Shown: positions 23,975 to 40,975 of the stretch, piece after piece
How the letters are laid out: every line of letters starts with the position of its first letter
Numbering within the stretch: the first letter of the stretch is position 1
Assembly (NCBI RefSeq): GCF_001570605.1
Contig: NZ_BBXG01000001.1
Coordinates: forward strand, 62,001-126,000
Length of the DNA: 64,000 bases
Reading direction: 5' to 3'
Origin: Herbidospora cretacea
Lineage (GTDB): Bacteria > Actinomycetota > Actinomycetes > Streptosporangiales > Streptosporangiaceae
Translations under genes and position numbers: made by a program
Notes under the pieces: model-generated
What the model was told of the DNA's origin: nothing
The model's input: the letters and a program-made list of their open reading frames with translations, nothing else
Database searches by the model: none

Positions 23975-24011
23975 GGTCGCCCAAGAGGATCGCAGACCCG
24001 ATGACAGGAAA

Positions 24012-24040
24012 CAGCGCCCCGGCCGGTGGCGAGGGCGCTG
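24012..24040 (-). terminator. Hairpin terminator of the GH31/ABC operon
   Basis: CAGCGCCC (24012-24019) and GGGCGCTG (24033-24040) form perfect 8-base arms around 13 bases. The hairpin begins 12 bases after the last operon gene's stop. Confidence 0.6.
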
Positions 24041-24052
24041 TGACCTGAAACG

Positions 24053-26881
24053 TCAGAACGATCCCGAGGTCGTCCCTCCCGATCCGCTCACCGGTGCGGT
24101 GAACACCGTGTTCCCGCCCGGTTCCCAGGCGTCAGCCGTGTCCGGGAACCCGGCCTCCTGCCGTTTCACGCACTTCCACTCGACGGACACCCCAGGCGGC
24201 AGCTTGGAGACGGTCCCCGTCCACGTCGGATAAGCGGTAGGCGACAGCTTCACCGCGCTAGCCACCGACCAGGAACCGAGCTGCGGCACGTTCCCCACCG
24301 CGTACACCGACTGCCCGGAGACAGTCGTCCCGGCAGCGCAACTGAACGTCATGGAAGACGGCGTCTGCCCGATGGTGAACGCAAACGTCTTGGCAGTCCC
24401 GACAGCCACAGACGCCGACTTGGCGACGATGACCCCACCGCCGGCGTTGTACCACCCGCTGGAAGCGGCGTCGAACGCGGCTTTGGACGAGTACTGAGTC
24501 AAAGCAGACCCGTTCAACGTCACGGCGCTGGCCTGCGTGTCCGCCACCAGTTCCACCACGTTCGACCGCGACGCCACAGCTCCCGTATACGTCCCGGAAG
24601 AGGCCGCAACCGTTACGGTCGCCACCGACCCGGAAAGCGACTGACTCAGAGAAGTGGTCCGCACCGAACCGGTCTTGTAGCCCGTCGTAGCCCCGTCATC
24701 CTCGTAAAGGGTGAAAGAACTTGCGCTCGGCGAAGCGTAGACCCGCGCGATCAGCTCGTTCCGGGAAGAGGCGTCGGTCCGCTTCCCGAGGACGTTCATG
24801 GTCTTGTCGTCCACGAACATCTTGGGAATGATCGCCCCGGCCCGCGCAAATGTCGGCAGCCGGAATTCACCGTTCACCCACAACGGCCGGTCGTTGAACC
24901 ACTGCCCGGTCGACACGAGCTTCTCGCCGGTCGCGTAGTCATACCAGGTCCCCGCAGGCAGGTACATGTTCCGCGACCGCTCGTCCTCCCCGGCCACCAC
25001 CCCCACCAGCAGGTCCTTGCCGATCATCTTCTGGTGGCCCATCTCCCGGACGGCGGCGTCGTTCTGGTAGTGGTAGACCAGCGGCGGGACGACGGGCTCC
25101 CCGGTCAGGTAGGCCCGATGCGCAAGCGAGTAGTAATAGGGCGTCAGTTCATACCGCCGCCGCAGGTTCCCGAGGTTGCTCGCCACGTCCCCGATCGAGT
25201 CGGGCGAGGTCGCCGCGCAGTTGCACAGGTTCTCCGTGTGCGGGCGCAGCGGCACGTCGAACCACGCCCCGTTGGCGAACCACTGGGTGTAGAGCTCGTC
25301 CAGGTCGGAGTCCAGCATCTCCCGCCGGAACCCGCCGATGTCGGAGCCGTAGTAGTCGATGCCGGACATCGACATGTGCATCTGGGCGTTCTGCTGCTGC
25401 GCCAGCGCCGTCAGCTTCGACCCGATGTCGGCCGACCACATGGCCACGCCGTGCCGTTGCATGCCGCCTGCGCCCGACCGCGCGAGCATGAACGGCCGCT
25501 TGCTTCCGGACGAGGTGTAGTTCCGCGCGATGCTCTCGGCCCACTTCAGGTTGTAGACGTTGTGGTAGTCCGCGTGCGCGTGCTTCCCGGGCAGCACGCC
25601 GGACGTCCAGTCGGCGGCGTCGTACATCTCCGGTTCGCCCAGGTCCAGCCAGTGGCCCAGGATGCCCTGGGTGCTGAGGGCGGCGCGCTTGAGGCCGTGC
25701 CAGTAGTCGCCGGCCGCGTTCTGCGTCCAGTCGATCATCCCGCCGCGGCCCCACCAGTCGTTGGTGGTCAGGTACGTCGGCGCGCACGAGGAACAGCCCG
25801 CCCGCACCAGGTAGCCCCGCGAGGCCATGTCGGCGTGCTCGGGGCGGTTCTTGCCGATGTACGACTCCTCGATCGTCATCAGCCCGACGCCCTGGTTCGT
25901 GGCGTAGTCGGCGATCTTGGTGGAAGGTGAAGGGAAATCACCGGTGTCCCACGTCAGCGACCCCATCAAGGTGTTGTCCGACCCGGCGGTCACCCCGCCG
26001 AACCACGGCAGGTCGAGCACGAACCCGTCCACCGGGAACTTGGCCGTCCGCAGGCCGGCGAGGCGGGTGTCGATCTCGGCCCAGTTGTCGTAGCCGAACT
26101 CCGACACCCACAGGCCGAACGCCTTCTTCGGCGGCACCGGCGGCCTGCCGGTCAGCTCCAGGTAGTCCTTGCGCAGGTCGGGGAGGTCGGGGCCGGTCAT
26201 CGTGTACCAGCGGATCTGGTCGCCCCAGGTGTCGATGGTCCACGGGTCGCCGCCCAGGTTCCACTCCTGCTTGTAGACGTGGTCGAGGAACAGGCCGTAG
26301 TTCAGGTTGGACGCCCCCACCGCGAACAGCACCGGGATCTGGGTGTTCCCGACCGGGCCGTTGTCGGGGTCCCAGACCATGGCGTTGCCGTAGGCGCCGC
26401 CGGGGGAGCGGGTGCGGCCGACCCAGTCGCCGTCGGCGCTGCCGCCGGTGAAGAACTGCTGGCCGAGCCCGTACGCGTGCTGGACGGAGCTCTTCGTCAC
26501 CGAGAGCCCCTTCCACGCTTGCGCAAGATTTCTCGGGCAGGCCTCGTACAGCAGCCGGGTGGGGTCGGAGACTTTCACGCACAGCGTGCCGGAGGTGACC
26601 TCCACTTTCATGGACGCCGTCGTGATGACGTTCCCGACCTGACTGAAGCTCGACGGGCCGGTGTAGTCGGTCTTGAGCACCTGCGGCGTCGTGAAGATCG
26701 GCGACCCCGTGCCGGGGCTGGTGCCCTGGGCCAGTTCGAAGTGGACCAGGTCGTCGTCGAGGAACTCGGCGATCAGGTAGGTCGACCCGCTGGTGAACTG
26801 CACCCGCTGCACGGCGGCCTGCGCGGGCAGGGCGACGAGGAAACTGCCGATCAACACCGCCAGGAACACGAGACGTCTCAT
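24053..26881 (-). CDS. Secreted GH31 enzyme with CBM20, isomaltosyltransferase/cycloalternan-forming type
   Basis: A 942-residue exported enzyme: signal peptide to about residue 22, GH31 N-terminal beta-domain, (beta/alpha)8 barrel, C-terminal beta-domains and a starch-binding CBM20 at about 843-942. The nucleophile is Asp413 in WLDLGEPE and the acid/base Asp485 in MWSADIGS. As I recall, these motifs and GIDYYGSDIGGF are typical of 3-alpha-isomaltosyltransferases (CtsZ) and cycloalternan-forming enzymes rather than of plain alpha-glucosidases. It is the last gene of the operon; its ATG overlaps the stop of the upstream GH31 gene (ATGA). Inferred role: transfer or cyclisation of isomaltosyl units made from starch by its neighbour. 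An ordinary secreted alpha-glucosidase remains possible. The same frame is open to 27745, but that part is antisense-like noise within the neighbour gene. Confidence 0.85.
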   Translation of the reverse strand: MRRLVFLAVLIGSFLVALPAQAAVQRVQFTSGSTYLIAEFLDDDLVHFELAQGTSPGTGSPIFTTPQVLKTDYTGPSSFSQVGNVITTASMKVEVTSGTLCVKVSDPTRLLYEACPRNLAQAWKGLSVTKSSVQHAYGLGQQFFTGGSADGDWVGRTRSPGGAYGNAMVWDPDNGPVGNTQIPVLFAVGASNLNYGLFLDHVYKQEWNLGGDPWTIDTWGDQIRWYTMTGPDLPDLRKDYLELTGRPPVPPKKAFGLWVSEFGYDNWAEIDTRLAGLRTAKFPVDGFVLDLPWFGGVTAGSDNTLMGSLTWDTGDFPSPSTKIADYATNQGVGLMTIEESYIGKNRPEHADMASRGYLVRAGCSSCAPTYLTTNDWWGRGGMIDWTQNAAGDYWHGLKRAALSTQGILGHWLDLGEPEMYDAADWTSGVLPGKHAHADYHNVYNLKWAESIARNYTSSGSKRPFMLARSGAGGMQRHGVAMWSADIGSKLTALAQQQNAQMHMSMSGIDYYGSDIGGFRREMLDSDLDELYTQWFANGAWFDVPLRPHTENLCNCAATSPDSIGDVASNLGNLRRRYELTPYYYSLAHRAYLTGEPVVPPLVYHYQNDAAVREMGHQKMIGKDLLVGVVAGEDERSRNMYLPAGTWYDYATGEKLVSTGQWFNDRPLWVNGEFRLPTFARAGAIIPKMFVDDKTMNVLGKRTDASSRNELIARVYASPSASSFTLYEDDGATTGYKTGSVRTTSLSQSLSGSVATVTVAASSGTYTGAVASRSNVVELVADTQASAVTLNGSALTQYSSKAAFDAASSGWYNAGGGVIVAKSASVAVGTAKTFAFTIGQTPSSMTFSCAAGTTVSGQSVYAVGNVPQLGSWSVASAVKLSPTAYPTWTGTVSKLPPGVSVEWKCVKRQEAGFPDTADAWEPGGNTVFTAPVSGSGGTTSGSF

Positions 26882-29800
26882 GGCCGCGCCACCACCAGGT
26901 TGTCGAGGTTGATGCCGTTCGACGCGTATTCGATCTTCACCGACCGAGCTCCGGCCGTGAGGTTCGTGGTCAGCGTCGCCGTGCCCCAGGTGTCCCAGTT
27001 CGCCAGGGCCGGCAGGTTGAGCGTTCCCGCCGACACCCCGTCTACGTAGACGGTCCGCGTCGAGGCGACGGTGGTCGAGTAGCGGAACTTGAGCTGGTGG
27101 CTGCCGGTCGCGTCGGCCCGCACCGCGAACGTCACCGAGTCGCCCGATGAGGCGAACCCGTCGACGAACCCGGTCCCGGTGTACCCGGTGTGGTTGGTGT
27201 TGGTCGAGACGCCTGCCCCGGCGGCGAACTCCGCCTCGTAGGCGGCCTTGTCCACCCCGTTCAGGGTGACCGACCGCGCCGACGCGCTGGAGGCCAGCTT
27301 CACGTACGTGAGCTGCTGCACCGGATCCCACCACCAGCCCTCCGAGGCCGACTGGAGCGCGGCCAGCGAGGCCCGCGCGGTCGCGCCGGTCACCGACGAC
27401 GGCTGGGTGGAGGCCACCTGAAGCGTCGACGTGGTGGTCAGCGCCGGCACCGAGACGCCGACGGTGTGGGAGGCCCAGTTCTCCGCCACAGAGAGGGTCC
27501 GGGACAGCCCGGCCGAGTCCTCGAAGTACGAGTACGACGAGTTGCCCGACGGATAGACGCGGAACACCAGGTTCGCGTACGAGGAGACGCTGTTGGAGAT
27601 GTTCCCGCCCAGCTCGTAGGCGGCGTTCAGGTTGAGCGGGATGATCGCCCCGGCGCGGGCGTACACGGGGATGGTGTCCAGTCCGGCGTTGTAGGTCTTC
27701 GTCCCGGGCCCGGTGAACCGGCCGCCGTTCCACAGGTCGTACCACTCACCCGCGGGCAGGTACACGTTCTTGGACGTCGCCCCCGCCGTGGTGATCGGCG
27801 CGACCAGCAACTGGGGGCCGAACATGTACTGCTGGTCGAGCGCGGCGGCCGTCGCGTCGGCGGGATAGGCGTAGCTCATCGCCCGCATCATCGGCGCGCC
27901 CGTCAGCGACGACGACTTCGCCTCGGTGTACAGGTAGGGGATCAGGTTCATCCGCACGTTCGCGAACTTGCGGAAATAGGGGATCACGTTCGTGTTCCCG
28001 GTCCGCGCCTGCACGTTCCACGGCGTCCGCGCCTCGGAGACGCCGGGGTTGGCCGTCTCCGAGTGATACTGCATGACCGGCGAGAACGCCGCCTGGGCGG
28101 CCGAGCGGAGGTAGAGCTCCGCGCTCGGGAAGCCGCCCGTGAAACCGGCCAGGTCCCACGCGGTGTACGGCACCCCCGACTGCCCGGCCGACAGCTGCGC
28201 CCTGACCGCCTCCTGGAAGGCGGGGAACGAGGAGTTCTGGTCGCCGGCCCAGAAGATCGAGGTCGACTGCGCCCCGGCGGTGCCGGCCCGGCTGAAGATC
28301 GTCGAGTCGGGCTTCTTGCCCTTCACGTACGTGTTGTAGGCCGACAGGTAGGAGTTCGGGTAGGCGTTGTGCATCTCGTCGCCCTTGCGGCCGTCGGCGA
28401 AGCCGACCCCGCGTCCGAAGATCGCCTCAGAGCCGTCGGTCTTGAAGCCGTCGATGCCGACGTCGTCCATCAGGTAGTCGCGCTTGCTCATCCACCAGGT
28501 CCGCGCGGCGGCCGAGGTGAAGTCGGGCACCATGCTGTCGCCGAACCACTGCCCGGTCGGCACCCGGTAGGGCGAGCCGCCCGGCTGGGTGGCGACGTAG
28601 CCCTGCGCCTGCGCGTAGGCCTTGTCGTTGAGGTGCTGCTGCGGCGCGGTCGACGGGTTGGTGTCGAAGTTCTCCTTGAACACCGGGATCTGCCAGAGGA
28701 TGACCTTGATGCCCTTGGAGTGGGCGTCGTCCACCATCGCCTTGGGGTTGCTCCACGCCGTCCCGGCCGGGAACGTCAGATCGCTCAGCGCGAGTTTCCC
28801 GCTGCCCGGTTTGGGGGTGTACGTCGCCCCGTGCCAGACGTAGAACGTCGCCTCGTCGCTCCACTGCTCCAGCACGATCGCCGAATGCGGGATGTCGTTG
28901 GTCCCCGGCTTGGCCAGCTCGGCCGTGACCTCCGCCTGGGTGTTCCACTCGTTGGCCGACATCCACAGCCCGAACGCCCACTTCGGCGGCAGCTGCGGGC
29001 GGCCGGTCACCGCCGTGTAGTCGTCGACGATGTCGGCGGGCGTGCCCGCGAAGAAGTGGTAGTCGAGCGTCGAGTTCAGCGCCCCGCCGGTGTCGACGGA
29101 GAAACCGGCCAGGTCGCTCAGGTGGGTGTTCAGGTTGAAGATGGAATAGCGCGTCGAGGGGATGTAGACGCCGTAACCGGCGGAGTTCAGGAAGAACGGC
29201 GTCGACAGGTAGGTGCGCCGCCACGACCCCTGGTCGCGATACTGGTTGTAGACGTAGTTGTGCACGTCGGTGCCGCGCTGGTCGAGCCGGTCGTACCGTT
29301 CGCCGAAGCCCTCGAACCGCTCTCCGGCGGGGGAGAGGAAGTGGTCTTCGATCTTCGTGACCGTGGAGACGCCGTCGCTGGCCCACCCGATGTTCCGGAA
29401 CACCGCCGGGTCGTACTGCCGCGTGATCAGCGTCGTCCCGTCGCCCTTGTAGACCGACAGGCGGTAGGGCGTCTTCTGGATCTTCAGCACCAGCGAGGAC
29501 GTCGAGATCTGCAACGTCGACGCCGAGTTGGTGACCGTGTAACCGGACACGCCGGTGATGTTCAGCCCGCTGCCGGAGGGCGCGATCTGGGTCCGGAACC
29601 GGTCGAGGGCGGGGAACGCGAAGCGGATCTTCGGGGTGAACGACCCCGCCGAGTCGCCGGTCGTCACGTCGACCGAGGTCCCGTTGTTCACGTAGGAGAC
29701 GACGTTCGTGACGGTCGACCACGACGTCACCTTGAACGTGAACGGGCCCACGCTGCGCTGCCCCGAGCCGTTGACGTCGGCGTTGATCGTGTACGAGATG

Positions 29801-30144
29801 GCGTCGCCCCGCGCGAACGAGCCCATCGGGATGCGCCAGTAGGTGTTGTTGCCCTGGTTGTAGTCCCAGGCCGCCCCGATCGGGGTCTGGGCGACGCCGT
29901 TCTTGGTCCAGGTGATCCAGACGGTCTGCCCCGGCTCGATCGGCCAGGTCGTGGCCTTGAGGGTGACGGCCTCCCCGGCCATCGGGTCGCGGGGAGAGCG
30001 CTCGGTCGGCTCGGTGGAGTAGAGGTCGTCGATGCCGGTCGGGTTGTGGTGGACGCCGTCGAGAGCGGCTGCGGGAAGGGCGTGGAACATCGTGGCGAGC
30101 AGAGCCAGGACCACGACGGTGACGCCCGAGCGTAACCGGATCAC
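26878..30144 (-). CDS. Secreted GH31 enzyme with CBM35, possible 6-alpha-glucosyltransferase
   Basis: A 1088-residue exported enzyme. The signal peptide ends near residue 28 (LPAAALDG). A beta-rich N-terminal region follows, then the GH31 barrel with nucleophile Asp570 (DGFKTDGSE) and acid/base Asp635 (FWAGDQNSS), and a C-terminal CBM35 at about 965-1088 (YEAEFAAGAG to GINLDNLVVARP). The GTG start at 30144 overlaps the stop of the cytoplasmic GH31 gene and has an AGAGGAG site 8 bases upstream. In cyclic-tetrasaccharide systems a secreted GH31 with CBM35 modules adds alpha-1,6-glucosyl ends to malto-oligosaccharides; that role is inferred here from domain layout and operon context. Confidence 0.85.
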   Translation of the reverse strand: MIRLRSGVTVVVLALLATMFHALPAAALDGVHHNPTGIDDLYSTEPTERSPRDPMAGEAVTLKATTWPIEPGQTVWITWTKNGVAQTPIGAAWDYNQGNNTYWRIPMGSFARGDAISYTINADVNGSGQRSVGPFTFKVTSWSTVTNVVSYVNNGTSVDVTTGDSAGSFTPKIRFAFPALDRFRTQIAPSGSGLNITGVSGYTVTNSASTLQISTSSLVLKIQKTPYRLSVYKGDGTTLITRQYDPAVFRNIGWASDGVSTVTKIEDHFLSPAGERFEGFGERYDRLDQRGTDVHNYVYNQYRDQGSWRRTYLSTPFFLNSAGYGVYIPSTRYSIFNLNTHLSDLAGFSVDTGGALNSTLDYHFFAGTPADIVDDYTAVTGRPQLPPKWAFGLWMSANEWNTQAEVTAELAKPGTNDIPHSAIVLEQWSDEATFYVWHGATYTPKPGSGKLALSDLTFPAGTAWSNPKAMVDDAHSKGIKVILWQIPVFKENFDTNPSTAPQQHLNDKAYAQAQGYVATQPGGSPYRVPTGQWFGDSMVPDFTSAAARTWWMSKRDYLMDDVGIDGFKTDGSEAIFGRGVGFADGRKGDEMHNAYPNSYLSAYNTYVKGKKPDSTIFSRAGTAGAQSTSIFWAGDQNSSFPAFQEAVRAQLSAGQSGVPYTAWDLAGFTGGFPSAELYLRSAAQAAFSPVMQYHSETANPGVSEARTPWNVQARTGNTNVIPYFRKFANVRMNLIPYLYTEAKSSSLTGAPMMRAMSYAYPADATAAALDQQYMFGPQLLVAPITTAGATSKNVYLPAGEWYDLWNGGRFTGPGTKTYNAGLDTIPVYARAGAIIPLNLNAAYELGGNISNSVSSYANLVFRVYPSGNSSYSYFEDSAGLSRTLSVAENWASHTVGVSVPALTTTSTLQVASTQPSSVTGATARASLAALQSASEGWWWDPVQQLTYVKLASSASARSVTLNGVDKAAYEAEFAAGAGVSTNTNHTGYTGTGFVDGFASSGDSVTFAVRADATGSHQLKFRYSTTVASTRTVYVDGVSAGTLNLPALANWDTWGTATLTTNLTAGARSVKIEYASNGINLDNLVVARP

Positions 30145-32285
30145 AGGAACACTCCTCTCAAACGCGGCCAGTGCTCGGAGGCACAGAGCACCGGAGGACG
30201 CTCGATGGGCGCGGGAAGGGTGACCTCCCGCCCACCGGGCAGCACCTCGCCGGTCCACACGTCCACCCACTCACCGGAAGGCAGGTAGGCGGCGATCTCG
30301 GTGGCGCCGGGGGTGGTGACGGGGACGACGAGCAGCGCGTCGCCCAGCTTGAACTGCAGGGGGTGGGACCACAACTCGCGTTCCATGTGGTCGAAGAACA
30401 GACCCCGCATGAGGGGCTTGCCGCCGCTCACCGCCACCGCCGCCTGCTCGGTCAGGTAGGGCACCAGACGCTCCCTGAGCTGCGCGAACTCGCGGAAGAT
30501 CGGGATGACCGCCGGATCGCCGGTCTGTTCGGCGATGTTCCAGGGCGTGCGGTCGCGGATGGGGGTGCGGTGGTGGTTGAACTCGGAGTGGTACTGCATG
30601 ATCGGCATGAACGCCGAGGTCCCGGCCGCGCGCAGGTAGAGCTCGGCGGTGGGCAGGTCGCCGGAGAAGCCGGCCAGGTCCCAGCCCCAGTAGACGATCC
30701 CGCACGCCGAGGCGGTGATCCCGGCGCGGATCGAGGCCTCGAAGGCCGTCCACGTCGAGTCCTCGTCGCCGGCCCAGAACGCGCCGTGCGGCTGCGAACC
30801 GGTGAAACCGGCCCGGCTGAAGGTGACCGGAGCCTTGCCGTGACGGCGCAGCAGGTCGCCGAAGGCACGGGCGTAGTGCACGGGGAACAGGCCGTTGCCG
30901 TCGTCGCCGCGCCTGCCGTCGGCGTAGCGGAGGTCGTGGCCCCAGGCGTGTTCGCCGCCGTCGGTCTTGAAGCCGTCGACGCCCAGCTCGGAGACGAGGT
31001 AGGCCCGTTTGGCGGTCCACCAGTCGCGGACCTCCGGCGAGGACAGGTCGGGCATCAGCGCCAGCGGGAACCACCAGCCTCGGTTCCGGTAGGGCCTGCC
31101 GTCCGCCTCGCGGACGCCGTAACCCTTGTCGACGAGCTGTTTCGCGTCGACGGCGGCCTGGTGGCGCGGGTGGGGGCGCATTTTCTGGAGCGGGATCTGC
31201 CAGAGCAGGACCTTGACGTCCCGGGAGTGCAGCTCGTCGATCATGCCCTTGGGGTCGGGCCACGGCCCGTCGGCGGGGAAGGTGTAGTCGGCCAGCGTGT
31301 GCGGCTCCTCGGAGGGTTCGTAGACCGCGCCCCGGAAGGCGGTGAAGGTCGACTCGTCCGACCAGGCCTCGATGACCAGCGCGCCCACGGGGATGTCGTG
31401 CTCGCGGTGCTTGTCCATCTCGTGGAGCACCCGGGCCTGGGTGTTCCACTCGTTGCCGCTGGCCCACAGCCGGAACACCCACGACGGCAGCTCGGTGGGA
31501 CGCCCCACTTCGTCAAGGAACTGCGTCAGCACTGCGGCGGGTTCGCCGTCGTAGAAGGCGATCTCCAGGTGGTCGCCGGAGATCTCGGCCTCGATGGTCA
31601 GCAGGTCGCCTTCGCTGGAATACCAGGTGCGCCGTGACGTGCGCACATGAAAACCCCACGACGAGTCGCCCACGACGAAGGCGAAGGGCATCGGCAGGTA
31701 CGTCCGGTTCGCCGCCCCCTGCCCCTTGTACTGCTCGAACACGACGGCGTCGAGGTCGTTGCCCCGCTGGTCGACCGCGTTGAACCGCTCCCCGAACCCG
31801 ACCAGATGATCGTCAGGGGACAGCCGGACCGCGAACCGGGCGCGGAGTGGCCCGTCCGCGTCGACCAGCCACTCGACCGATCCGGGCACCACCCGGTCGG
31901 TCCCGCTGACGCCGATCTTCCCGGGGACCCACCGCGCCGCCGACACCTCGAACCACCGGGTGGTACGCCCCGGCTCCCGGAACCGGTAGCGGTAGCGCTC
32001 CCCGAACGCCAGCGGGCCCGTCGTCACCGTCCACGACCCGGTGGCGGCGCGGGCCGCCTTGGCCTGGGCGGCGGCCAGGTGCCCGCCGTCGGTGACGACC
32101 AGTCCCTCATTCGCGTACAGGGGCGTCATGGGCAGCTCGGCGCCGTCCCACTCGCAGACGACCTCGGTGGCCGACGACCTCACCCGCAGCTCGACGGCCT
32201 CACCGTCGAGGGGGACCAGGGGAACCCGCTGGTCCTCGGAGACGGCGTAGGGGTGGCCCGAACCGAAGGGACGATGACGGATCAA
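30141..32285 (-). CDS. Cytoplasmic GH31 alpha-glucosidase
   Basis: A 714-residue GH31 enzyme without a signal peptide. The N-terminal beta-domain is followed by the barrel with nucleophile Asp442 (DGFKTDGGE) and acid/base Asp507 (FWAGDEDS). It is clearly related in sequence to the CBM35-bearing secreted neighbour, so the pair may have arisen by duplication. The TTG at 32285 is the best start: it overlaps the stop of the GH15-like gene (TTGA), has GGGAG 7-8 bases upstream, and begins MIRHRPFG. An upstream frame to 32363 exists but lacks support. Likely job: hydrolyse the imported alpha-1,6/1,3-linked oligosaccharide to glucose. Confidence 0.88.
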   Translation of the reverse strand: MIRHRPFGSGHPYAVSEDQRVPLVPLDGEAVELRVRSSATEVVCEWDGAELPMTPLYANEGLVVTDGGHLAAAQAKAARAATGSWTVTTGPLAFGERYRYRFREPGRTTRWFEVSAARWVPGKIGVSGTDRVVPGSVEWLVDADGPLRARFAVRLSPDDHLVGFGERFNAVDQRGNDLDAVVFEQYKGQGAANRTYLPMPFAFVVGDSSWGFHVRTSRRTWYSSEGDLLTIEAEISGDHLEIAFYDGEPAAVLTQFLDEVGRPTELPSWVFRLWASGNEWNTQARVLHEMDKHREHDIPVGALVIEAWSDESTFTAFRGAVYEPSEEPHTLADYTFPADGPWPDPKGMIDELHSRDVKVLLWQIPLQKMRPHPRHQAAVDAKQLVDKGYGVREADGRPYRNRGWWFPLALMPDLSSPEVRDWWTAKRAYLVSELGVDGFKTDGGEHAWGHDLRYADGRRGDDGNGLFPVHYARAFGDLLRRHGKAPVTFSRAGFTGSQPHGAFWAGDEDSTWTAFEASIRAGITASACGIVYWGWDLAGFSGDLPTAELYLRAAGTSAFMPIMQYHSEFNHHRTPIRDRTPWNIAEQTGDPAVIPIFREFAQLRERLVPYLTEQAAVAVSGGKPLMRGLFFDHMERELWSHPLQFKLGDALLVVPVTTPGATEIAAYLPSGEWVDVWTGEVLPGGREVTLPAPIERPPVLCASEHWPRLRGVFL

Positions 32286-33334
32286 AGTTCGGCTCCCAGC
32301 ATCAGGTACATGCCGTGCGACCACAGCAGGGGGGTGGCGACCGGCCCCCAGCGGCGCAGCCACTCGTCATGGCGGTCGGGGAAGAGCAGCACGTCGGAGA
32401 CCTGCTCGGGGAGGTCGCCGTTGGGCAGCGCCTGGGCGGCCATCCAGTCGAGGTAGCGGCGGGCCTCCTCGGGCCGCCCGGCCGCCGCGTGGTTCAGCCC
32501 GAGGAACCCGGCCAGCAGCACCCACCGGCCGCCGCCGTAGAAGGTGTCGGCGCGGTAGCGGTACACGCCGCCGTCGACGGAGAGCTGCCGCTCGACCTCG
32601 GCGACGGTCGCGACGGCCACCGGGTGGTCGGGGGCGTACAGACCGAAGGGGGCGACGCACGCCAGCAGGCTGCCGTCGACCTCGTCGGACCCCAGCCATT
32701 TGCGCAGGTGGCCCCGGTCGGAGACGCCCTCGGCGGCGATCAGCGCCTCGATGCCGCCGATCGCCTCCTTCACCTCGGCGTCGGCGACCCCGAGCGAGAC
32801 GGCGGCCCGCAGCCCGGCGTGGACCGCGCCGAGCGTGGCCACGTGGCGCTGCTCGACGTGCTCCTCCCACCAGTCGTAGCAGGGGCTGTCCCAGAACGCC
32901 GCCAGGTAGCGCGACGTCACCCGGACGGCCTCCATCGGGACGTCCAGGGAGTGGCGCCGGGCGTGCTCGGCGAGCTGCCACAGCCACGTGCCGTAGCCGT
33001 CGAGCTGGTGGTCCCACCACTCGTCGGTGCCGTCGGCGCCGTCCAGGGTGAACCGGGTCGGCAGCATCTCCCCAGGTGAGAGAGGCCCGTGGCGGCGGGA
33101 GATCAGGTCGTCGACCTGCGCGGTGCGCGCGGTGACGACCCGCGCGCACCACTCGTGGAAGGCGGTGACCGAGGCCTCCTCGCCCGCCCGGGACATGCCC
33201 TCGGCGATGAACGCGCCATCGCGAAGCCAGGCATATCCGGCATAGGCCGAGAAGGTCGGGCACGCCGGGTAGGCCCCCGAGGGCGACTGATTCTCGCGGA
33301 TCACCTGGACACTGCGAGACATCAAGTCGATCAT
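32282..33334 (-). CDS. GH15-like glycosidase (glucoamylase/glucodextranase type, barrel only)
   Basis: A 350-residue cytoplasmic protein with the GH15 (alpha/alpha)6 pattern. The substrate-site motif YAWLRDGAF is near residue 33. A candidate general acid lies in DWWEEHVEQRH, and a candidate general base Glu in LPEQVSD near residue 310. It lacks the N-terminal beta-sandwich of most bacterial GH15 enzymes (usually 600 or more residues). An AGGAGAG site precedes the ATG, 12 bases after the binding-protein stop. With the cytoplasmic GH31 it would complete intracellular breakdown to glucose. An exo-acting alpha-1,6 or alpha-1,4 enzyme is equally possible. Confidence 0.8.
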   Translation of the reverse strand: MIDLMSRSVQVIRENQSPSGAYPACPTFSAYAGYAWLRDGAFIAEGMSRAGEEASVTAFHEWCARVVTARTAQVDDLISRRHGPLSPGEMLPTRFTLDGADGTDEWWDHQLDGYGTWLWQLAEHARRHSLDVPMEAVRVTSRYLAAFWDSPCYDWWEEHVEQRHVATLGAVHAGLRAAVSLGVADAEVKEAIGGIEALIAAEGVSDRGHLRKWLGSDEVDGSLLACVAPFGLYAPDHPVAVATVAEVERQLSVDGGVYRYRADTFYGGGRWVLLAGFLGLNHAAAGRPEEARRYLDWMAAQALPNGDLPEQVSDVLLFPDRHDEWLRRWGPVATPLLWSHGMYLMLGAEL

Positions 33335-33346
33335 GCTGGTTCTCTC

Positions 33347-34600
33347 CTAGCCGAGAAGGGCGTCGACCTTGGACGCGGCTTCGGTCAGGGCCTCTTCGAC
33401 CGACTTGCGGCCGGCCGCGGCCTCGGTGAGCTCCTGGGTGACGGCGTCCTGCATCTCCTGCTGGCGGGCGATGACCGGCGGCAGCGCGATGCTCTTGAGC
33501 GAGTCGAAGACCGCCTGGCGGTTGGCCGGGACCGGGTCCTTCAGGTAGCCCGCCAGCACCGACTGGTCGGAGACCGGCGGGAGCTCCCACGAGCTGGCGA
33601 TCCGGGTGGTCGCCGCGACGTTCGAGCCGCTAAGGAACTTGGCCCAGGCGTACGCCTCACGCGGGTGCTTCGTCGTGGCCGAGGCGGCGACCGAGTTGTG
33701 GAAGACGGCGCTGGCCTTCTGGGTGTCGCCGGGCTCGACGACGACGTCCCACTGGAACGGCACGTCCTTCAGCCCGGCGAACTGCCAGATGCCGTTGTGC
33801 CACATCGCGAGCTTGCCCGACTTGAAAAGGTTGGTGTCGTAGTCGGCGGTGCCGCCGATCTCGGCCTCGGTCGGCATGGTCTTGCCGACCTTGTCGACCA
33901 GCCACTTCGCCGCCTTGACGCCCTCGGGGCTGTTGAAGGTCGACTTGCCGCCGCCCATGAACTCGCCGCCGGCCTGCTTGAGCGCCTTGTAGAACTCGAA
34001 GAAGGTGACCGGCTGGAAGTCGCCGAAGACGCCCTTCGCGGTCAGCTTCTCGGCCGCGGCCTTCTCGTCCTCCCAGGTCCAGTCGGCGGTGGGCAGCGGG
34101 ACGCCGGCCTTCTCGAACAGGTCCTTGTTGTAGAGCAGGACGACGGTGGAGAACGATGCCGGGAGCGCGAACTGCTTGCCCTCGTGCTTGAAGGCGTTCA
34201 GCGACTCGGGGGCGTAACCGGAGGTGTCGGTGTCGCCGCCCGCCGTGCCCAGGTCGAGCAGGCTGCCCGCGCCGGCGTAGGTGACGAAGTTCTCGTAGTT
34301 GAGCTCGAAGGTGTCGGGGGCGGTCTGGCCCGCGATGCTGGTCTGGAGCTTGGTGAAGTACTGGTCGTAGGGGGCCGTCTCGACCTGCACGTCCACCGTG
34401 GGGTTCTCCTTCTCGAACGCCGCCACGATCGTGTCGAGGTCCTTCACGTGGTCGGGGGCGGCGGAGAAGGTGAAGTAGCGGAGGGTGACCTTGCCGCCTG
34501 CGGCGGGCTCTTCCGTACGGGTCGCCGACCCCTGCGAGCAGGCGGTGGCGAGCAGGGCGGTGATCAGGGCCGCCGCGGCGACCCGGGCTGATCCGGCCAT
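33347..34600 (-). CDS. Sugar ABC transporter substrate-binding lipoprotein
   Basis: A 417-residue family 1 solute-binding protein. The lipobox ends at Cys21 (LLATACS), so it is anchored outside the membrane. The fold signature is seen in LRYFTFSAAPDHVK, FELNYENFVTY, and VVLLYNKDLFEKAGVPLPTADWTW, the standard extracellular-sugar-binding motif. An AAAGGAAC site lies upstream of ATG 34600. It follows the two permeases and precedes the glycosidases, so the ligand is probably the alpha-glucan oligosaccharide made by the two secreted GH31 enzymes. Confidence 0.93.
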   Translation of the reverse strand: MAGSARVAAAALITALLATACSQGSATRTEEPAAGGKVTLRYFTFSAAPDHVKDLDTIVAAFEKENPTVDVQVETAPYDQYFTKLQTSIAGQTAPDTFELNYENFVTYAGAGSLLDLGTAGGDTDTSGYAPESLNAFKHEGKQFALPASFSTVVLLYNKDLFEKAGVPLPTADWTWEDEKAAAEKLTAKGVFGDFQPVTFFEFYKALKQAGGEFMGGGKSTFNSPEGVKAAKWLVDKVGKTMPTEAEIGGTADYDTNLFKSGKLAMWHNGIWQFAGLKDVPFQWDVVVEPGDTQKASAVFHNSVAASATTKHPREAYAWAKFLSGSNVAATTRIASSWELPPVSDQSVLAGYLKDPVPANRQAVFDSLKSIALPPVIARQQEMQDAVTQELTEAAAGRKSVEEALTEAASKVDALLG

Positions 34601-34623
34601 GGTTGTTCCTTTGTTTCGGGGGG

Positions 34624-35430
34624 TTATTTGAGGCCTGACTGGGCCACGGAGGCGATGACGTGCTTCTGGGCGAACAGGTAGAGGATGAGGATCGGGACGA
34701 CGCTGACCACCGACCCGGCCATCACGACGTTCCACTCGGTGGTGAACTGGCCGTGCAGGTTGGCCAGCCCGAGGGGGAGCGTCATGAACTCGGGCGACCT
34801 GATGATCACCAGCGGCCACAGGTAGCTGTTCCAGCTCGCCATGAAGCCGAAGATCGCGAATGTGGCGAGGGCGGGCCTGATCAGCGGCAGCACGACCAGC
34901 GCGAAGATCCGGAAGTGCCCGGCGCCGTCGAGCACGGCCGCCTCGTCGAACTCCTTGGGCACCTGCTGGACGGCCTGGCGCAGCAGGAACACCCCGAACG
35001 CCGAGGCGATCGTGGGGGCCAGGACCGCGAAGTAGGTGTCGGTCAGGTTGAACGTGCGCATCTCGATGAACAGCGGCACGACCAGCACCTGGAGCGGCAC
35101 CATCAGCGTGGCCAGGTAGACCGCGAACAGCGCGCCCCGGCCGGGGAAGGGCAGCCGGGCGAAGGCGTAGGCGGCCATCGAGCTGGTGACCAGCTGGAAC
35201 ACGGTCGAGGCGACGGCGATCCAGAGGCTGTTGAACATGATCCGCCAGAACGGCATGGTCTCCAGCAGCCGCGCGTAGCCGTCGAGGGTGGCGTTGTCGG
35301 GCGTGAAGTCGGGCGGCGTCTGCAGGACGGTCCCCGCCGGGGTCAGCGAGGTGATCACCGCCCAGGCGAACGGGAACAGCATGACCAGGGCGCCCAGCCC
35401 CACCAGCAGGTATTTCAGCGACCTAGCCAT
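34624..35430 (-). CDS. Carbohydrate ABC transporter permease (MalG-type)
   Basis: A 268-residue inner-membrane permease of the CUT1 family with about six membrane helices. The EAA loop that contacts the ATPase is visible as EFDEAAVLDGAGHFRIFALVVLP. Its start overlaps the end of the MalF-type partner gene by 8 bases. No ATPase gene is in the operon; actinomycetes often use a shared MsiK-type ATPase encoded elsewhere, which is the likely arrangement. Confidence 0.93.
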   Translation of the reverse strand: MARSLKYLLVGLGALVMLFPFAWAVITSLTPAGTVLQTPPDFTPDNATLDGYARLLETMPFWRIMFNSLWIAVASTVFQLVTSSMAAYAFARLPFPGRGALFAVYLATLMVPLQVLVVPLFIEMRTFNLTDTYFAVLAPTIASAFGVFLLRQAVQQVPKEFDEAAVLDGAGHFRIFALVVLPLIRPALATFAIFGFMASWNSYLWPLVIIRSPEFMTLPLGLANLHGQFTTEWNVVMAGSVVSVVPILILYLFAQKHVIASVAQSGLK

Positions 35431-36352
35431 AGTTCACCCACCGGCGCTGGCCCCGGACCTGGACGAGCGTGACCACCAGCACGACCGCGAACAGCAGCCA
35501 CGACAGGGCGGACGCCTCACCGGCGCGGCCGTATTTGAAGGTCAGGTTGTAGACCTGCTCGACGACGACCTGGGTCGCGCCGGCCGGTCCGCCGCCGGTC
35601 ATGACATGGACCTGGTCGAAGACCTGGAACCCGTTGATCAGCGAGATGACGACGACGAAGAACGTGCTGGGGGACAGCAGCGGCAGCGTGATCCGGCGGA
35701 ACCGCTGCCAGGCGTTCGCGCCGTCGACCCGGGCGGCCTCGATGTACTCCTTCGGGATGGCCTGGAGCCCGGCCAGCAGGATGATCATCACGAAGCCGAG
35801 GTCCTTCCAGGCCGAGGCGAGGATGATCGAGGGCATCGCCCAGTCGGGGTCGGTCCACCACCCCGGCCCTTGGAGGCCGACCAGGCCGATCGCCCAGTTG
35901 ACGATCCCCGACGCCGGGTTGAGCAGCCACTTCCACAGCAGCGCCACGACCACCCACGACGTGACGACCGGCAGGAAGTAGATCGCCCGGAAGATGTCGC
36001 GGCCCTTCATGGCCCGGTTGAGCAGCATCGCCAGGCCGAGGCCCCCGGCGTAGACGAGGGGGAGGTATCCGGCGATGAAGTAGAGGGTGTGGCCGAACGC
36101 GGCGCGGGTCTCCTCGCTGCCGAGAAGATAGGCGTAGTTGTCCAGGCCGACCCACTTCATCGGCGTGATGAGGTTCCACTCGTGCAGCGACGTCCAGAGC
36201 GAACCGGCCATCGGGATCAGGGTGAAGAGCAGGAGCGGGACCGCGCTGGGGAGCAGGAAGACGGCGACCGTGAGGGCGTAGCGGAGGCGCTTCCTCGGCG
36301 GGCGGACCGGCTGCTTGGCGGCGGTCTGCGGAGGGGCCTCGGTGAGGGTCAC
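35423..36352 (-). CDS. Sugar ABC transporter permease (MalF-type)
   Basis: A 309-residue CUT1 permease, six membrane helices after a basic N-terminal tail. The EAA loop reads EYIEAARVDGANAWQRFRRITLPLL. The GTG at 36352 has a GGGGAGG site 6 bases upstream. It lies 49 bases after the ROK regulator gene on the same strand with no terminator between, so the regulator heads the operon. Confidence 0.93.
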   Translation of the reverse strand: MTLTEAPPQTAAKQPVRPPRKRLRYALTVAVFLLPSAVPLLLFTLIPMAGSLWTSLHEWNLITPMKWVGLDNYAYLLGSEETRAAFGHTLYFIAGYLPLVYAGGLGLAMLLNRAMKGRDIFRAIYFLPVVTSWVVVALLWKWLLNPASGIVNWAIGLVGLQGPGWWTDPDWAMPSIILASAWKDLGFVMIILLAGLQAIPKEYIEAARVDGANAWQRFRRITLPLLSPSTFFVVVISLINGFQVFDQVHVMTGGGPAGATQVVVEQVYNLTFKYGRAGEASALSWLLFAVVLVVTLVQVRGQRRWVNYG

Positions 36353-36401
36353 CGGACACCTCCCCGCCGGGCTGCGGCCCGGGACATCGTCTTTTCGTGC
36401 G

Positions 36402-37583
36402 TCATGAGCTCGCCCCGATCAGCCGGGCGCGCACCATCCGGCCCTGCTCCCCGGCCGCGCCCTCGGTGTCGAAGGGGGTCGCGAGCACCAGCGCCGCCGC
36501 GCCCTGGGCCCAGGAGGTGTCGTCCCAGCTCTCGACCTCGATCTCGATGTCGCGGCGGCCCGGCATGAGCTGGCGGCGGACCGCTTTGTCGAAGCCGTCG
36601 CGCCAGTAGGGCCAGTGGGCCGTGCCCTCGCCGAGGACCACGACCACCTCGGGGTCGACGACGTTTATCAAGCCCGCCGTCGCCCGGCCGAGGATCGTAC
36701 CGGCCTCGGCGAAGACCTCGCGGGCGCGGGGATCGGACCCGGCCAGGGCGCCCAGTTCGTCGACCGTCATCACGTCGAGGCCGCGTTCGCGGGCCGAGGT
36801 CACCAGGCCGGCCGCGCCGACGACGGCCTCCAGGCACCCGTACGCCCCGCAGCCGCACAGCGGTCCGTCCACAGCGACCGGGACGTGCCCGAACTCGCCG
36901 GCGCCGCCGCGCGCGCCCCGGTAGACCCGGCCGTCGGCGACGATCGCGGCGCCGACGCCGCGCCCTATGGTCAGAACGAGGAAGTCGCGGTGGGTGCGGC
37001 CCCGGCCGTAGAGGCGCTCGGCCACGGCCAGCGCGTTGACGTCGTTCTCCAGCAGGACGGGAAGCTTGAGGCGGCGGCGGAGGCGGTCGCCGACCGGCAT
37101 GGCCTGCCAGCCGAGAGTGGGGGCGTTGCAGGTTCCGACGGCCTGGTCGTCGACGCTGCCGGGGACGCAGACCCCGACGCCGAGCAGGGGAGGGACCTGG
37201 TCCAGCACGCCGGCGACGGCCTCGGCCAGCTCGCCGAGCGCGTCGGGGGAGGAGGGGTCGAAGGGGCTCTCCCAGGAGCCGAGGACCTCGCCGTCGAGGC
37301 GGACCTCGACGATGACCAGGTGCTCGGCGGTCACCTTCACGCCGAGCGCGCGCCCGGCCGAGCCGACGAGGCCGAGGCGCTGGGCGGGGCGTCCGCCCCG
37401 GGACGGCTGGAGGTCGAGTTCCTCCAGCATGCCCGCCGCCATGAGGGCCTTGGTGAGCTGGGTGACGGTCGCGGGGGAGAGGTCGAGCTCCTTGGCCAGC
37501 TCGGTGCGGCTGAGCGGCCCGACCGTGCCGAGCAGGGCGAGGATCGCCGTCCGGGTGAGGTCACCTCGATCGGTCGCAGCCAT
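36402..37583 (-). CDS. ROK-family transcriptional regulator of the alpha-glucan operon
   Basis: A 393-residue repressor-type ROK protein. An N-terminal winged helix-turn-helix (LSRTELAKELDLSPATVTQLTKALMAAG) is followed by the sugar-kinase-like ROK domain, with the ENDVNALAVAE motif and the zinc site around CGCGAYGCLE. It is therefore a regulator, not a bare kinase. ATG 37583 has an AAAGTGAG site; the frame is open 18 codons further up. The palindrome CTTTATTGGTAAAG just upstream is a good operator. An incoming or derived sugar would presumably release it. Confidence 0.9.
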   Translation of the reverse strand: MAATDRGDLTRTAILALLGTVGPLSRTELAKELDLSPATVTQLTKALMAAGMLEELDLQPSRGGRPAQRLGLVGSAGRALGVKVTAEHLVIVEVRLDGEVLGSWESPFDPSSPDALGELAEAVAGVLDQVPPLLGVGVCVPGSVDDQAVGTCNAPTLGWQAMPVGDRLRRRLKLPVLLENDVNALAVAERLYGRGRTHRDFLVLTIGRGVGAAIVADGRVYRGARGGAGEFGHVPVAVDGPLCGCGAYGCLEAVVGAAGLVTSARERGLDVMTVDELGALAGSDPRAREVFAEAGTILGRATAGLINVVDPEVVVVLGEGTAHWPYWRDGFDKAVRRQLMPGRRDIEIEVESWDDTSWAQGAAALVLATPFDTEGAAGEQGRMVRARLIGASS

Positions 37584-37595
37584 CGGGCTCACTTT

Positions 37596-37609
37596 CTTTA
37601 TTGGTAAAG
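37596..37609. promoter_or_regulatory. Probable ROK operator at the head of the operon
   Basis: CTTTATTGGTAAAG has perfect 5-base arms around TTGG and lies 12 bases above the ROK gene start. Such AT-rich palindromes in a GC-rich genome are typical ROK/NagC/XylR targets. Confidence 0.5.
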
Positions 37610-37674
37610 TTAGTCCCGAAATATGGCTGCTCAGCAAGGTACTGTCAAGACTCCGAAACCAGATCGAAACCTGT

Positions 37675-38529
37675 TCAGTGGCGGGTGCAGGGACGCACGA
37701 CGGCGATCGGGCAGCGGGCGTGCCGGAGCACCCGGCGGCTGACCGACCCCATGACGGTCGACCCGGCCCGGCCTCGGCCGTGGGAGCCCACCACGACCAG
37801 GTCGGCCTCGCGGGAGGCGTCGACCAGCGCCTCGACCGGGTGCGCGGTGCGCAGGTCGTCGAAGACCGGCAGGGCCGGATAGCGCGTGCGGTGCCGGGCG
37901 AGCTGGTGGGTGGCCACCGCCCGCTGGCCCGCGCGGACGGCGTCGACGTCGATCGTGATCTCCGGGGCGTAGCCGTGCGACGGGAGGGTCCAGGCGTTCA
38001 GGGCGCGGATCCCGGCGTTGTACCGGCTGGCGTGCTCGAAGGCGTAGGAGATCGGGTCCTGGCAGTCGGCCGCCTCGTCCAGGCCGATCACGACCTCGCC
38101 GACGCGGCGGCGGGGCCGGTCGCGGACGATCACGACCGGGCCGGCGGCGTGCCCGGCGAGCTGCATGCTGACCGATCCCAGAATGCTCCCGGCGGTCCTG
38201 GCCATGCCCCGGCTGCCGAGCACCAGCGCGGCCGACTCGTCGGCCATCCTGCGCAGCACGTCGGCCGGCCGGCCCTCGGCGTTCTCCAGCCGCATCCCGA
38301 GCCCGGGGCTCCGGTCGCGCGCGGTCTTCTCGGCCTCGGTCAGGATCCGGGAGGCCAGGTCCGCGAACTGGTCGTCGAGCGCGGAGGCGTCGACGAGCCG
38401 GTACGGGTACCGGTCGATCACGTGGACGATGCGCAGCATCGCCCCCCGGCGGGCCGCGTCGTCGGCGGCCCACTCGACGGCGGCCAGCGACGGCGGCGAG
38501 CCGTCGACACCGACTGTTACATCCCTCAT
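37675..38529 (-). CDS. Universal stress protein, two tandem Usp domains
   Basis: A 284-residue protein of two UspA domains (about residues 1-140 and 145-284). Each has the ATP-binding end motif: VLGSRGMARTAGSILGSVS and VVVGSHGRGRAGSTVMGSVS, matching G-2x-G-9x-G-S/T. ATG 38529 has a GGGGGAG site; the frame extends up to 38655 through the regulatory region and is not used. Tandem Usp genes are classic members of the mycobacterial DosR dormancy regulon, and this one diverges from a DevR-type regulator with DevR-like boxes between. Confidence 0.9.
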   Translation of the reverse strand: MRDVTVGVDGSPPSLAAVEWAADDAARRGAMLRIVHVIDRYPYRLVDASALDDQFADLASRILTEAEKTARDRSPGLGMRLENAEGRPADVLRRMADESAALVLGSRGMARTAGSILGSVSMQLAGHAAGPVVIVRDRPRRRVGEVVIGLDEAADCQDPISYAFEHASRYNAGIRALNAWTLPSHGYAPEITIDVDAVRAGQRAVATHQLARHRTRYPALPVFDDLRTAHPVEALVDASREADLVVVGSHGRGRAGSTVMGSVSRRVLRHARCPIAVVRPCTRH

Positions 38530-38588
38530 GACTCCCCCTTGGGTTTCGCCCTGTCCTCCATGACAACGCTTGAGCTGGGCAAATACCC

Positions 38589-38604
38589 AGGGTCGAAAGT
38601 CCCT
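38589..38604. promoter_or_regulatory. DevR/DosR-like box, distal copy
   Basis: AGGGTCGAAAGTCCCT closely follows the known DosR consensus core (GGGACTNNNGTCCC), with one arm imperfect. It lies between the divergent usp and response regulator genes, centred 28 bases from a second copy. Confidence 0.55.
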
Positions 38605-38616
38605 AATAGGACAAAG

Positions 38617-38632
38617 AGGGACTTTGGTCCCT
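38617..38632. promoter_or_regulatory. DevR/DosR-like box, proximal copy
   Basis: AGGGACTTTGGTCCCT has perfect 6-base arms (AGGGAC/GTCCCT) and matches the DosR consensus core. It lies 35 bases above the response regulator start and would allow autoregulation as well as control of usp. Confidence 0.65.
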
Positions 38633-38666
38633 ACCTGGCCAGAAAAGGGATGCATAGGTTGAAGAC

Positions 38667-39305
38667 ATGATTCGTGTCTTCCTTGTGGACGATCATGAAG
38701 TCGTGCGGCGCGGTGTGGCGGCCCTGCTGGAGGCCGAGGACGACATCCGCGTCGTGGGCGAGGCCGGATCGGTCGCGGCGGCGATCACGCGCATCCCCGC
38801 GCTCCGGCCCGACGTGGCGGTCCTGGACGTCCGCCTGCCCGACGGCAACGGCGTGGACGTCTGCCGCGAGGTCCGCAGCGCCGTCCCCGAGCTGCCGTGC
38901 CTGATGCTGACCTCCTATGCCGACGACGACGCCCTGTTCCAGGCCGTGATGGCCGGGGCCTCGGGCTACGTCCTGAAGCAGATCCACGGATCCGACCTGG
39001 TGGGCGCGGTGCGCGCGGTGGCGGGCGGCCGGTCGCTGCTCGACCCGAAGGCGACCACGACCATGCTGCGGCGGCTGCGGGAGGGGACCGCCCGCCGCGA
39101 CCCGCTCGCGGCCCTGACCGACCAGGAGCGCCGGATCCTGGAGCACATCGGCGAGGGCATGACGAACCGGCAGATCGGCGACCAGATGTTCCTGGCCGAG
39201 AAGACGGTCAAGAACCACGTCTCCCGGCTGCTGGGCAAACTCGGCATGCAGCGCCGGACCCAGGTGGCCGTCTACGCCGCCCGGATGCAGTCGGACGGTG
39301 TCTAG
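38667..39305 (+). CDS. DevR/DosR-type response regulator (NarL family)
   Basis: A 212-residue regulator. The receiver domain has the acidic pair DD at 8-9, phospho-acceptor Asp54 (VLDVRLPDG) and the GYVLKQ lysine. The LuxR-type helix-turn-helix is at about 148-205 ([20 protein letters not shown], ending [20 protein letters not shown]). This is the layout and length of mycobacterial DevR, which induces the hypoxia/NO dormancy genes. The partner kinase is convergent, sharing the four bases CTAG at the stops. Confidence 0.9.
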
Positions 39306-40975
39306 CTGAGGGGGACCTGCCACAGCAGGTGGGTCCCGCAGCCCTCGCGGGGGGCGGCCTCGAAACGGCCGCCGAGCATCTTCGCGCGCTGCTCCAGATT
39401 CCGCAGTCCGCTGCGCCGCCCGTGGGCCGGCAGGCCGACGCCGTCGTCGTCGACGGTCAGGACCACCTCGTCGCCCGCCTCCAGTGACACCTCGACCCGG
39501 TTGGCCGCGGCGTGCCGGACCACGTTCGACAGCGCCTCGCGCAGGACCGCCAGCACCTGGTCGCCGATCTCCTCGGGCACGCCGTAGTCGAGCTGCCCGT
39601 CCAGCCGCAGCACCGGCCGGAACCCCAGGTCCCCGTACGTCTTGTCGATCAGCTCCGCCACCCGGGAGCGCAGCCCCGACTCGTCCGGCCCCAGCGGGCC
39701 CTGGAGGGCGAAGATCGTCGCCCGGATCTGCCGGATGGTCGCGTCGAGCTCGTCCACCGAATGGCGCACCCGGGCCGCCGCCTCGGGGTGCTCCACCAGC
39801 CGGACCGTGCTCATCAGGGTCATCGCCACCGCGAACAGCCGCTGGATCACCACGTCGTGCAGGTCCTTGGCGATGCGGTCGCGGTCCTCCAGCAGGTTGA
39901 TCCGCTCGGCGTCGCGCCGCGTCTCGGCCAGTTCCAGGGCCACGGTGGCCTGGGCCGCGAAGGACGTGAGCATCTCCATCGACGACGCGCCGAACGGGAT
40001 CCGGCCCGGCCGCTTCCCCAGGCCGAGGACGCCGCGCACCGATCCGGCCGAGCCCAGGGGGATGGCGGCGGCCGGCCCGATGGGCAGGCCCCGGATGGTC
40101 TCGTACCCGGCGGCGGTCATGTCGGTGACGAAAAGGGCCTCTCCGGTCTTGTAGGCCTTGCCCGCCAGGGACGTGTCGAGTCCGACCTCGCCGCCGATCA
40201 GCTCGCCGATCCCTTCGGCGACCAGCGCCCGGAGCGAGGTGCCGCCCTCGACCGGGAAGAACACCAGGGCGGTGTCGGAGTCGGCCATCTCCTTGATCCG
40301 CTTGGCCACCTGGGCCAGGACGTCTCCGGGCCCGGCTCCGGAGAGCAGGCTCGTGGTCACGTCGGCGGTGGCCTGCAGCCAGAGTTCCCGGCGGCGGGTC
40401 TCCTCGTACAGGCGGGCGTTCTCGATCGCCACGCCCGCCGCGGTGGCCAGGGCGACGACGACGGCCTCGTCCTCCTCGTCGAACTCGCCGCCGCCGCGCT
40501 TCTCGGTCAGGTAGAGGTTGCCGAAGACCTCGTCGCGGACCCGCAGCGGCACGCCCAGGAAGGATCCCATCGGGGGGTGCCCGTCGGGGAAGCCTTGGGA
40601 CTCGTCGTGGTCGGCGATCCGCGACAGCCGCAGCGGTCTCGGCTCCTTGATGAGCTGGCCCAGCACGCCCAGGCCGTGGGGCCAGTGCTCGATCCGGGCG
40701 ATCTCCTGCTCGCTGAGGCCGACGGGGAGGAACTCCACCAGCGTGTGTTCGTCGCCGATCACGCCGAGGGCGCCGTAACTGGCGTCCACGAGGCGGGTGG
40801 CGGTCTCGACGATGCGCCGCAGCACCGTCTCCAGTTCGAGGTCGCCGCCGATGAGGACCACGGCCTCCAGCAGGGTGTGGACCCGGTCGCGGGTGGCGAG
40901 CACGGCGTCGAGTCTCGTCTGGAGCTCCGAGAGGAGTTCGTCCAGCCGCATGCTTGGAATCAATGGACGGGACAT
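39302..40975 (-). CDS. DevS/DosT-type double-GAF sensor histidine kinase
   Basis: A 557-residue soluble histidine kinase. GAF-A (about 45-190) contains [18 protein letters not shown], with His133 in the position of the proximal haem ligand of DevS (His149). GAF-B is at about 205-350. The HisKA_3 dimerisation helix has [16 protein letters not shown] with phospho-acceptor His373, and a HATPase domain ends the protein ([12 protein letters not shown]). Haem-based sensing of O2, NO or CO is inferred from this histidine and the family. It is convergent with the response regulator rather than in the devR-devS operon order of mycobacteria. Confidence 0.9.

Follow-up and report, generated by a model that had tools for sequence, protein, structure and literature searches.

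A predicted single operon for starch utilization through cycloalternan in Herbidospora cretacea

Introduction

Cycloalternan, or cyclobis-(1->6)-alpha-nigerosyl (CNN), is presumably made from starch by Kribbella. A CNN pathway of starch utilization in Kribbella flavida was reportedly described by Tagami and co-workers (J Biol Chem 2016, 291:16438), with one gene cluster for synthesis and a separate one for catabolism, and the isomaltosidase and the isomaltose glucohydrolase are said to have been named in that work. Listeria and Trueperella possess a cycloalternan pathway that comprises the cycloalternan-forming enzyme Lmo2446, Lmo0181 and a cycloalternan-degrading GH31 enzyme. The structure of the binding protein Lmo0181 has been solved in complex with CNN (5F7V; PMC7676653). 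A parallel pathway for another cyclic tetrasaccharide, cyclic maltosyl-maltose (Cmm), operates in Arthrobacter globiformis M6, where the ring is made outside the cell, imported and cut inside by way of GH13 enzymes and a binding protein about 20-25% like Lmo0181 (PMC7676653).

Here we analyze a locus of Herbidospora cretacea for which a cycloalternan-type operon of starch remodelling and uptake had been predicted from the DNA alone. This core claim is backed by synteny and by the orthology of the isomaltosyltransferase (IMT), the isomaltosidase, the GH15 enzyme and the binding protein, and we propose that the operon very probably runs starch utilization via CNN.

Results

Layout and predicted control of the operon

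The window, a stretch of 64,000 nucleotides in a genome of 8.28 Mb, holds eight minus-strand genes between positions 24053 and 37583 (Table 1). Their order, an operator at the head and a hairpin at the end had all been anticipated, and all were confirmed. Stop/start overlaps of 4 bases link the four enzyme genes, the two permease genes overlap by 8 bases and the remaining intergenic gaps span 12-70 bases. The mechanically called open reading frames 24053-27745 and 26878-30270 are over-extended at their 5' ends; starts that fit the signal peptides and the orthologues are likely 26881 for the CBM20 enzyme and 30144 for the CBM35 enzyme. Dozens of further genomes hold this gene set as well, so its arrangement is not due to chance. 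The central gene of the window is 93-95% identical to its counterpart in six named Herbidospora species. No ATPase gene is present among the eight genes of the operon, a point on which the original prediction was silent, and candidates for a MalK-type ATPase sit elsewhere in the genome.

Table 1 Features of the H. cretacea operon, with two natural gene fusions from other actinomycetes. Positions are those of the window except for the fusions, which are numbered within their own loci.
Feature	Position	Strand	Evidence or remark
ROK-family transcriptional regulator, N-terminal winged helix	36402..37583	-	Pfam PF00480 2e-51 and HTH matches
MalF-type ABC permease	35423..36352	-	Pfam PF00528 5e-22; kept in synteny
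MalG-type ABC permease	34624..35430	-	Pfam PF00528 5e-20; kept in synteny
Lipoprotein substrate-binding protein, Lmo0181 orthologue	33347..34600	-	5F7V, E 1.9e-93
GH15 isomaltose glucohydrolase (by orthology)	32282..33334	-	KfIG 5Z3A, E 2.6e-119
Cytoplasmic GH31 (no signal peptide), 1,3-alpha-isomaltosidase / cycloalternan-degrading enzyme (by orthology)	30141..32285	-	5X3I; AIMA-like_N domain; tree
Secreted GH31, Lmo2446-like N-terminal domain and C-terminal CBM35, 3-alpha-isomaltosyltransferase / cycloalternan-forming enzyme (by orthology)	26878..30144	-	5F7U/4KMQ; Pfam; tree
Secreted GH31, signal peptide, DUF5110 and C-terminal CBM20, presumed 6-alpha-glucosyltransferase	24053..26881	-	Pfam; synteny; fusions
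-35 box TTGACA	37643..37648	-	17-base spacer to CATATT; like layout 5' of ROK in related loci
-10 box CATATT	37620..37625	-	Sequence reading
Operator ACTAACTTTACCAATAAAGAAAGT, presumed site of the ROK regulator	37591..37614	-	Unique in window; conserved in relatives
Terminator-like hairpin ACAGCGCCC...GGGGCGCTGT, then TTT	about 24011..24041	-	Computed fold
IMT-CBM20 enzyme fusion, L037	9983-15706		1908 aa
IMT-CBM20 enzyme fusion, L034	9974-14647		At least 1558 aa; contig end cuts the ORF

The two promoter boxes form a near-consensus promoter (TTGACA-17-CATATT) 5' of the ROK gene, and the operator lies just downstream of it. On a weight matrix the operator scores 41 bits, and no other independent site in the window exceeds 8.8 bits; as the matrix was seeded with the window site along with those of relatives, the 41-bit score is partly circular, which leaves the uniqueness of the site unaffected. 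An element of the ACTAACTTTACCAATAAAGAAAGT type precedes the ROK gene in most relatives. Where the gene set is split, operator sites lie between genes, 5' of the ROK gene, and in some cases they fall between this gene and that of the isomaltosyltransferase; one such locus (L030) has a second site approximately 90 bases before the isomaltosyltransferase match. The ROK protein presumably binds the putative operator. Palindromes upstream of the ROK gene in Listeria and in a Thermotogota MAG, ACTTACTT...AAGTAAGT (ACTTAC...GTAAGT), resemble the actinobacterial operator by eye, and their sequences suggest that the pairing of regulator and operator is old. The hairpin after the last gene is strong, but its U-tract is weak, with three T only.

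Two other regions of the window were noted. Upstream of the operon, positions 37675-40975 encode a universal stress protein, a LuxR-type response regulator and a GAF/HisKA_3 kinase, which resemble a dormancy module of the DevR/DevS type and have no connection with the operon. The gene at 8465-11041 encodes a secreted protein of 858 aa that has two F5/8 type C domains and no recognized catalytic domain.

Orthology of the binding protein and three of the enzymes

The CBM35 enzyme aligns at full length (residues 25-1086) with the cycloalternan-forming enzyme of Listeria and Trueperella (5F7U/4KMQ) with about 1126-1130 bits, and the next kind of match reaches only 467 bits. It bears the Pfam domain named after Lmo2446 in addition to its CBM35. 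In the tree, the IMT and the isomaltosidase each fall inside their own named clade with support of 98-100. The CBM35 enzyme clusters with the Listeria enzyme and not among plain alpha-glucosidases or alpha-xylosidases, the grouping that the original prediction had named as incompatible with it. Judged by sequence, it is an orthologue of the cycloalternan-forming enzyme, a secreted 3-alpha-isomaltosyltransferase.

The cytoplasmic GH31 enzyme matches 5X3I over its whole length (965 bits, E 1.7e-289). Because the orthologue from K. catacumbae scores 1407 bits against it, 5X3I can be taken as a Kribbella protein. The 5X3I chain has an alanine in place of D442 of the window enzyme, which fits a nucleophile mutant; D442 is the presumed nucleophile and D507 the presumed acid/base. 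Together with the AIMA-like_N domain detected by Pfam, the alignment identifies this enzyme as an orthologue of the Kribbella 1,3-alpha-isomaltosidase.

E157 and E310 of the GH15 protein align with E178 and E335 of KfIG from K. flavida, which we take to be its catalytic residues, and both catalytic glutamates are retained. The third-position GC of the GH15 gene is normal for the genome. KfIG (5Z3A) is the isomaltose glucohydrolase of K. flavida (PMC12446779), and its match to the GH15 protein (Table 1) makes the latter, by alignment, its orthologue. The enzyme had been regarded as an addition to this operon; it is instead of a kind known from K. flavida.

The match of the binding protein to Lmo0181 (Table 1) is 66 orders of magnitude better than that to the next solved protein (E 3.2e-27), and by this measure it is an orthologue of the cycloalternan-binding protein. 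Its gene is adjoined by those of the ABC permeases. The identities of the CBM35 enzyme, the isomaltosidase, the GH15 enzyme and the binding protein point with high confidence to CNN as the substrate.

The CBM20 enzyme

The original interpretation thus holds for seven of the genes and probably for the eighth, that of the CBM20 enzyme. A 6-alpha-glucosyltransferase role had been proposed for it; genomic context supports this role, but clear orthology to the Bacilli enzyme was not borne out. The CBM20 enzyme shares 27-29% identity with the large 6-alpha-glucosyltransferase of Bacilli, a protein clearly of the Ps6TG31A type with 1456 bits to 5X7O, whose record is titled alpha-1,6-glucosyltransferase. 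In the tree it forms a separate deep GH31 clade with full support, apart from the Bacilli enzyme, and this placement speaks neither for nor against the grouping with plain alpha-glucosidases or alpha-xylosidases that had been singled out as a check. A forced grouping of this clade with the Bacilli enzyme was not rejected (AU p 0.244). Its presumed catalytic residues D413 and D485 are invariant.

An AlphaFold model built from 40 broader GH31 sequences (pLDDT 81.8) shows an ordinary GH31 fold; one built from 16 close orthologues was poor (pLDDT 55.5) and was set aside. The structural neighbors of the model, namely lysosomal alpha-glucosidase, alpha-xylosidases, FjDex31A and Agd31B, all have Z values of about 35-40 and do not single out any one function or closest relative. 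Foldseek also listed 5X7O, which superposed poorly, and the rows of a second structural comparison do not include it.

These observations leave room for another reading, in which the CBM20 enzyme is some other starch-active GH31, such as an alpha-glucosidase, an Agd31B-like 4-alpha-glucosyltransferase or an endo-acting enzyme, and the IMT receives its 6-linked donor from dextran, isomaltooligosaccharides or alternan. The depth and separateness of the clade are consistent with it, as are the closest solved sequence matches, the dextranase FjDex31A (6JR6) and Agd31B, and the existence of relatives in genomes without an IMT. However, the gene lies directly 3' of the IMT gene in all 47 actinobacterial loci, and in two separate actinomycete MAGs the two enzymes are encoded in one ORF (Table 1). 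These fusions are 79% identical to each other and have lost the CBM35 and the second signal peptide at the joint. Within the 150 genomes sampled from the family of the window, every one of the ten with an IMT also has a CBM20-type enzyme. The CBM20 itself is a starch-binding module, Kribbella, the presumed CNN maker, has a CBM20-type enzyme beside its IMT (L017, L020), and the one other unassigned GH31 of the genome lies on another contig with no link to the operon. We consider the other reading unlikely, and genomic context predicts that the CBM20 enzyme is probably the 6-alpha-glucosyltransferase partner of the IMT.

The clade varies in its surroundings and its domains. A strict tie between the CBM20-type enzyme and the IMT was considered and is weakened by two genomes of one genus, in which a CBM20-less relative (67%; L113:9049-11577 and L114:7614-10136) occurs near a different ABC sugar transporter, with no IMT in the genome; the clade is therefore not confined to the pathway. 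In two further loci (L032:13280-15799 and L117:14109-16580) the presumed 6-alpha-glucosyltransferase lacks the CBM20 and the rest of the operon is retained. Herbidospora mongoliensis has a second, partial copy of the CBM20 enzyme, its C-terminal half, a few kb from the first (L002:22408-23262; G426:C9:157314-158762). Two long actinobacterial GH31 proteins (L076, L080) were tried as Bacilli-type 6-alpha-glucosyltransferases and rejected, as their scores to that enzyme hardly exceed those to others and they fall elsewhere in the tree.

Proposed pathway

We propose that the CBM20 enzyme would bind starch or maltodextrin outside the cell and move terminal glucose to O-6, giving isomaltosyl-capped chains. 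By orthology, the CBM35 enzyme would then transfer isomaltosyl units to O-3 and close two of them into the four-glucose ring, which would enter the cell through the two permeases with the help of the lipoprotein binding protein. A shared ATPase of the MalK type, encoded at another place in the genome, presumably powers this import. Inside, the cytoplasmic GH31 is expected to cut the alpha-1,3 bonds to yield isomaltose and the GH15 enzyme to cut isomaltose to glucose, both as orthologues of characterized Kribbella enzymes. Presumably, the ROK protein keeps the single promoter repressed by way of the operator ACTAACTTT...AAAGAAAGT and releases it once the sugar or one of its breakdown products appears.

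It could be argued that the operon serves a different cycle of alpha-glucans, in which cyclic maltosyl-maltose or nigerooligosaccharides, for instance, would be taken up, and that the specificity of its enzymes has drifted. Orthology does not prove specificity, and the pathway of A. globiformis is a parallel case (PMC7676653). The CBM35 enzyme, the isomaltosidase, the GH15 enzyme and the binding protein of the window nevertheless all match the CNN set and not the GH13 enzymes and the distant binding protein of that organism, and we regard this alternative as very improbable. A decaying or silent cluster is hardly credible at all, given intact frames in all operon genes, conserved overlaps and operator, retained catalytic residues and 89-97% identity to the genes of other Herbidospora.

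Distribution and uptake-only genomes

Of the 47 actinobacterial loci found, 30 resemble the window in having all genes of the set in one direction, 14 (among them those of Kribbella, Kibdelosporangium, Microbacterium and Arthrobacter) have it split into two divergent halves and three are otherwise arranged or cut. Seven Chloroflexota MAGs hold loci with the ROK gene, permeases, binding protein, GH15 and an isomaltosidase-like GH31. No IMT was found in these seven genomes, which may be incomplete as MAGs; the best match (42-47%) is the isomaltosidase-like frame. These MAGs are candidate scavengers of cycloalternan. In the family sample, the isomaltosidase is present in 21 genomes and the IMT in ten of them. 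Two of the 11 IMT-less carriers were inspected, and both have the whole uptake half in order.

Such organisms may feed on the rings of their neighbors. Genomes that have the uptake and degradation half alone are common. This speaks against a store of sugar that is strictly private, and it weakens the earlier idea that starch locked into the ring is closed to competitors.

Discussion

Taken together, the data allow a broader proposal that we offer tentatively. The CBM20 enzyme may be an independently recruited 6-alpha-glucosyltransferase that is not of Bacilli descent and that has been fused with the IMT in some actinomycetes into a one-chain cycloalternan synthase. The ring would then be a shared currency, with the uptake-only genomes (11 of the 21 carriers in the family and the seven Chloroflexota MAGs) living on rings made by neighbors. 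Two questions become testable with the comparative data. One is whether the 6-alpha-glucosyltransferase evolved a second time, separately, in the CBM20 clade; the other is whether cycloalternan is stored privately by its maker or is a public good. For one-step production of the cyclic tetrasaccharide from starch, the one-chain fusion of L037 offers a ready candidate enzyme. As far as a partial check of the literature goes, four points may be new: the deep clade formed by the CBM20 enzyme, the naturally occurring fusions, the conservation of the operator and how often genomes have uptake alone.

The original prediction took Bacillus and Listeria as its model, but the nearest known system is actinobacterial, that of K. 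flavida. The two Kribbella loci (L017, L020) contain the six genes for uptake and degradation that the window has (ROK, two permeases, binding protein, GH15 and GH31) along with the same pair of IMT and CBM20 enzyme, and the GH15 and GH31 of the window are orthologues of the solved Kribbella proteins 5Z3A and 5X3I. In Kribbella the two halves are divergent, each behind a ROK-type gene, whereas Herbidospora and its close relatives have both halves in one co-directional operon with a single operator.

The Listeria and Trueperella pathway shares with the window an orthologous IMT, binding protein and isomaltosidase as well as a ROK protein; the IMT of the window is 48% identical to that of L. costaricensis. 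The gene after the IMT in L. costaricensis encodes a 1313-aa protein that scores 1456 bits against 5X7O and belongs to the Ps6TG31A type instead of the CBM20 type, and no GH15 isomaltose glucohydrolase was seen within the examined part of the Listeria locus. Bacillus (Sporosarcina) globisporus shares the IMT class through what we take to be its member CtsY; its CtsZ differs from the CBM20 enzyme in that it presumably belongs with the large Bacilli 6-alpha-glucosyltransferases. With the Cmm pathway of A. globiformis M6 the window shares the logic of making a ring outside, importing it and cutting it inside, but the enzymes there are of GH13, the ring linkages differ and the binding protein is distantly related. 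The pathway itself is already known from Kribbella and Listeria, and the operon of the window is well supported as the version of another actinomycete, with both halves merged in one operon.
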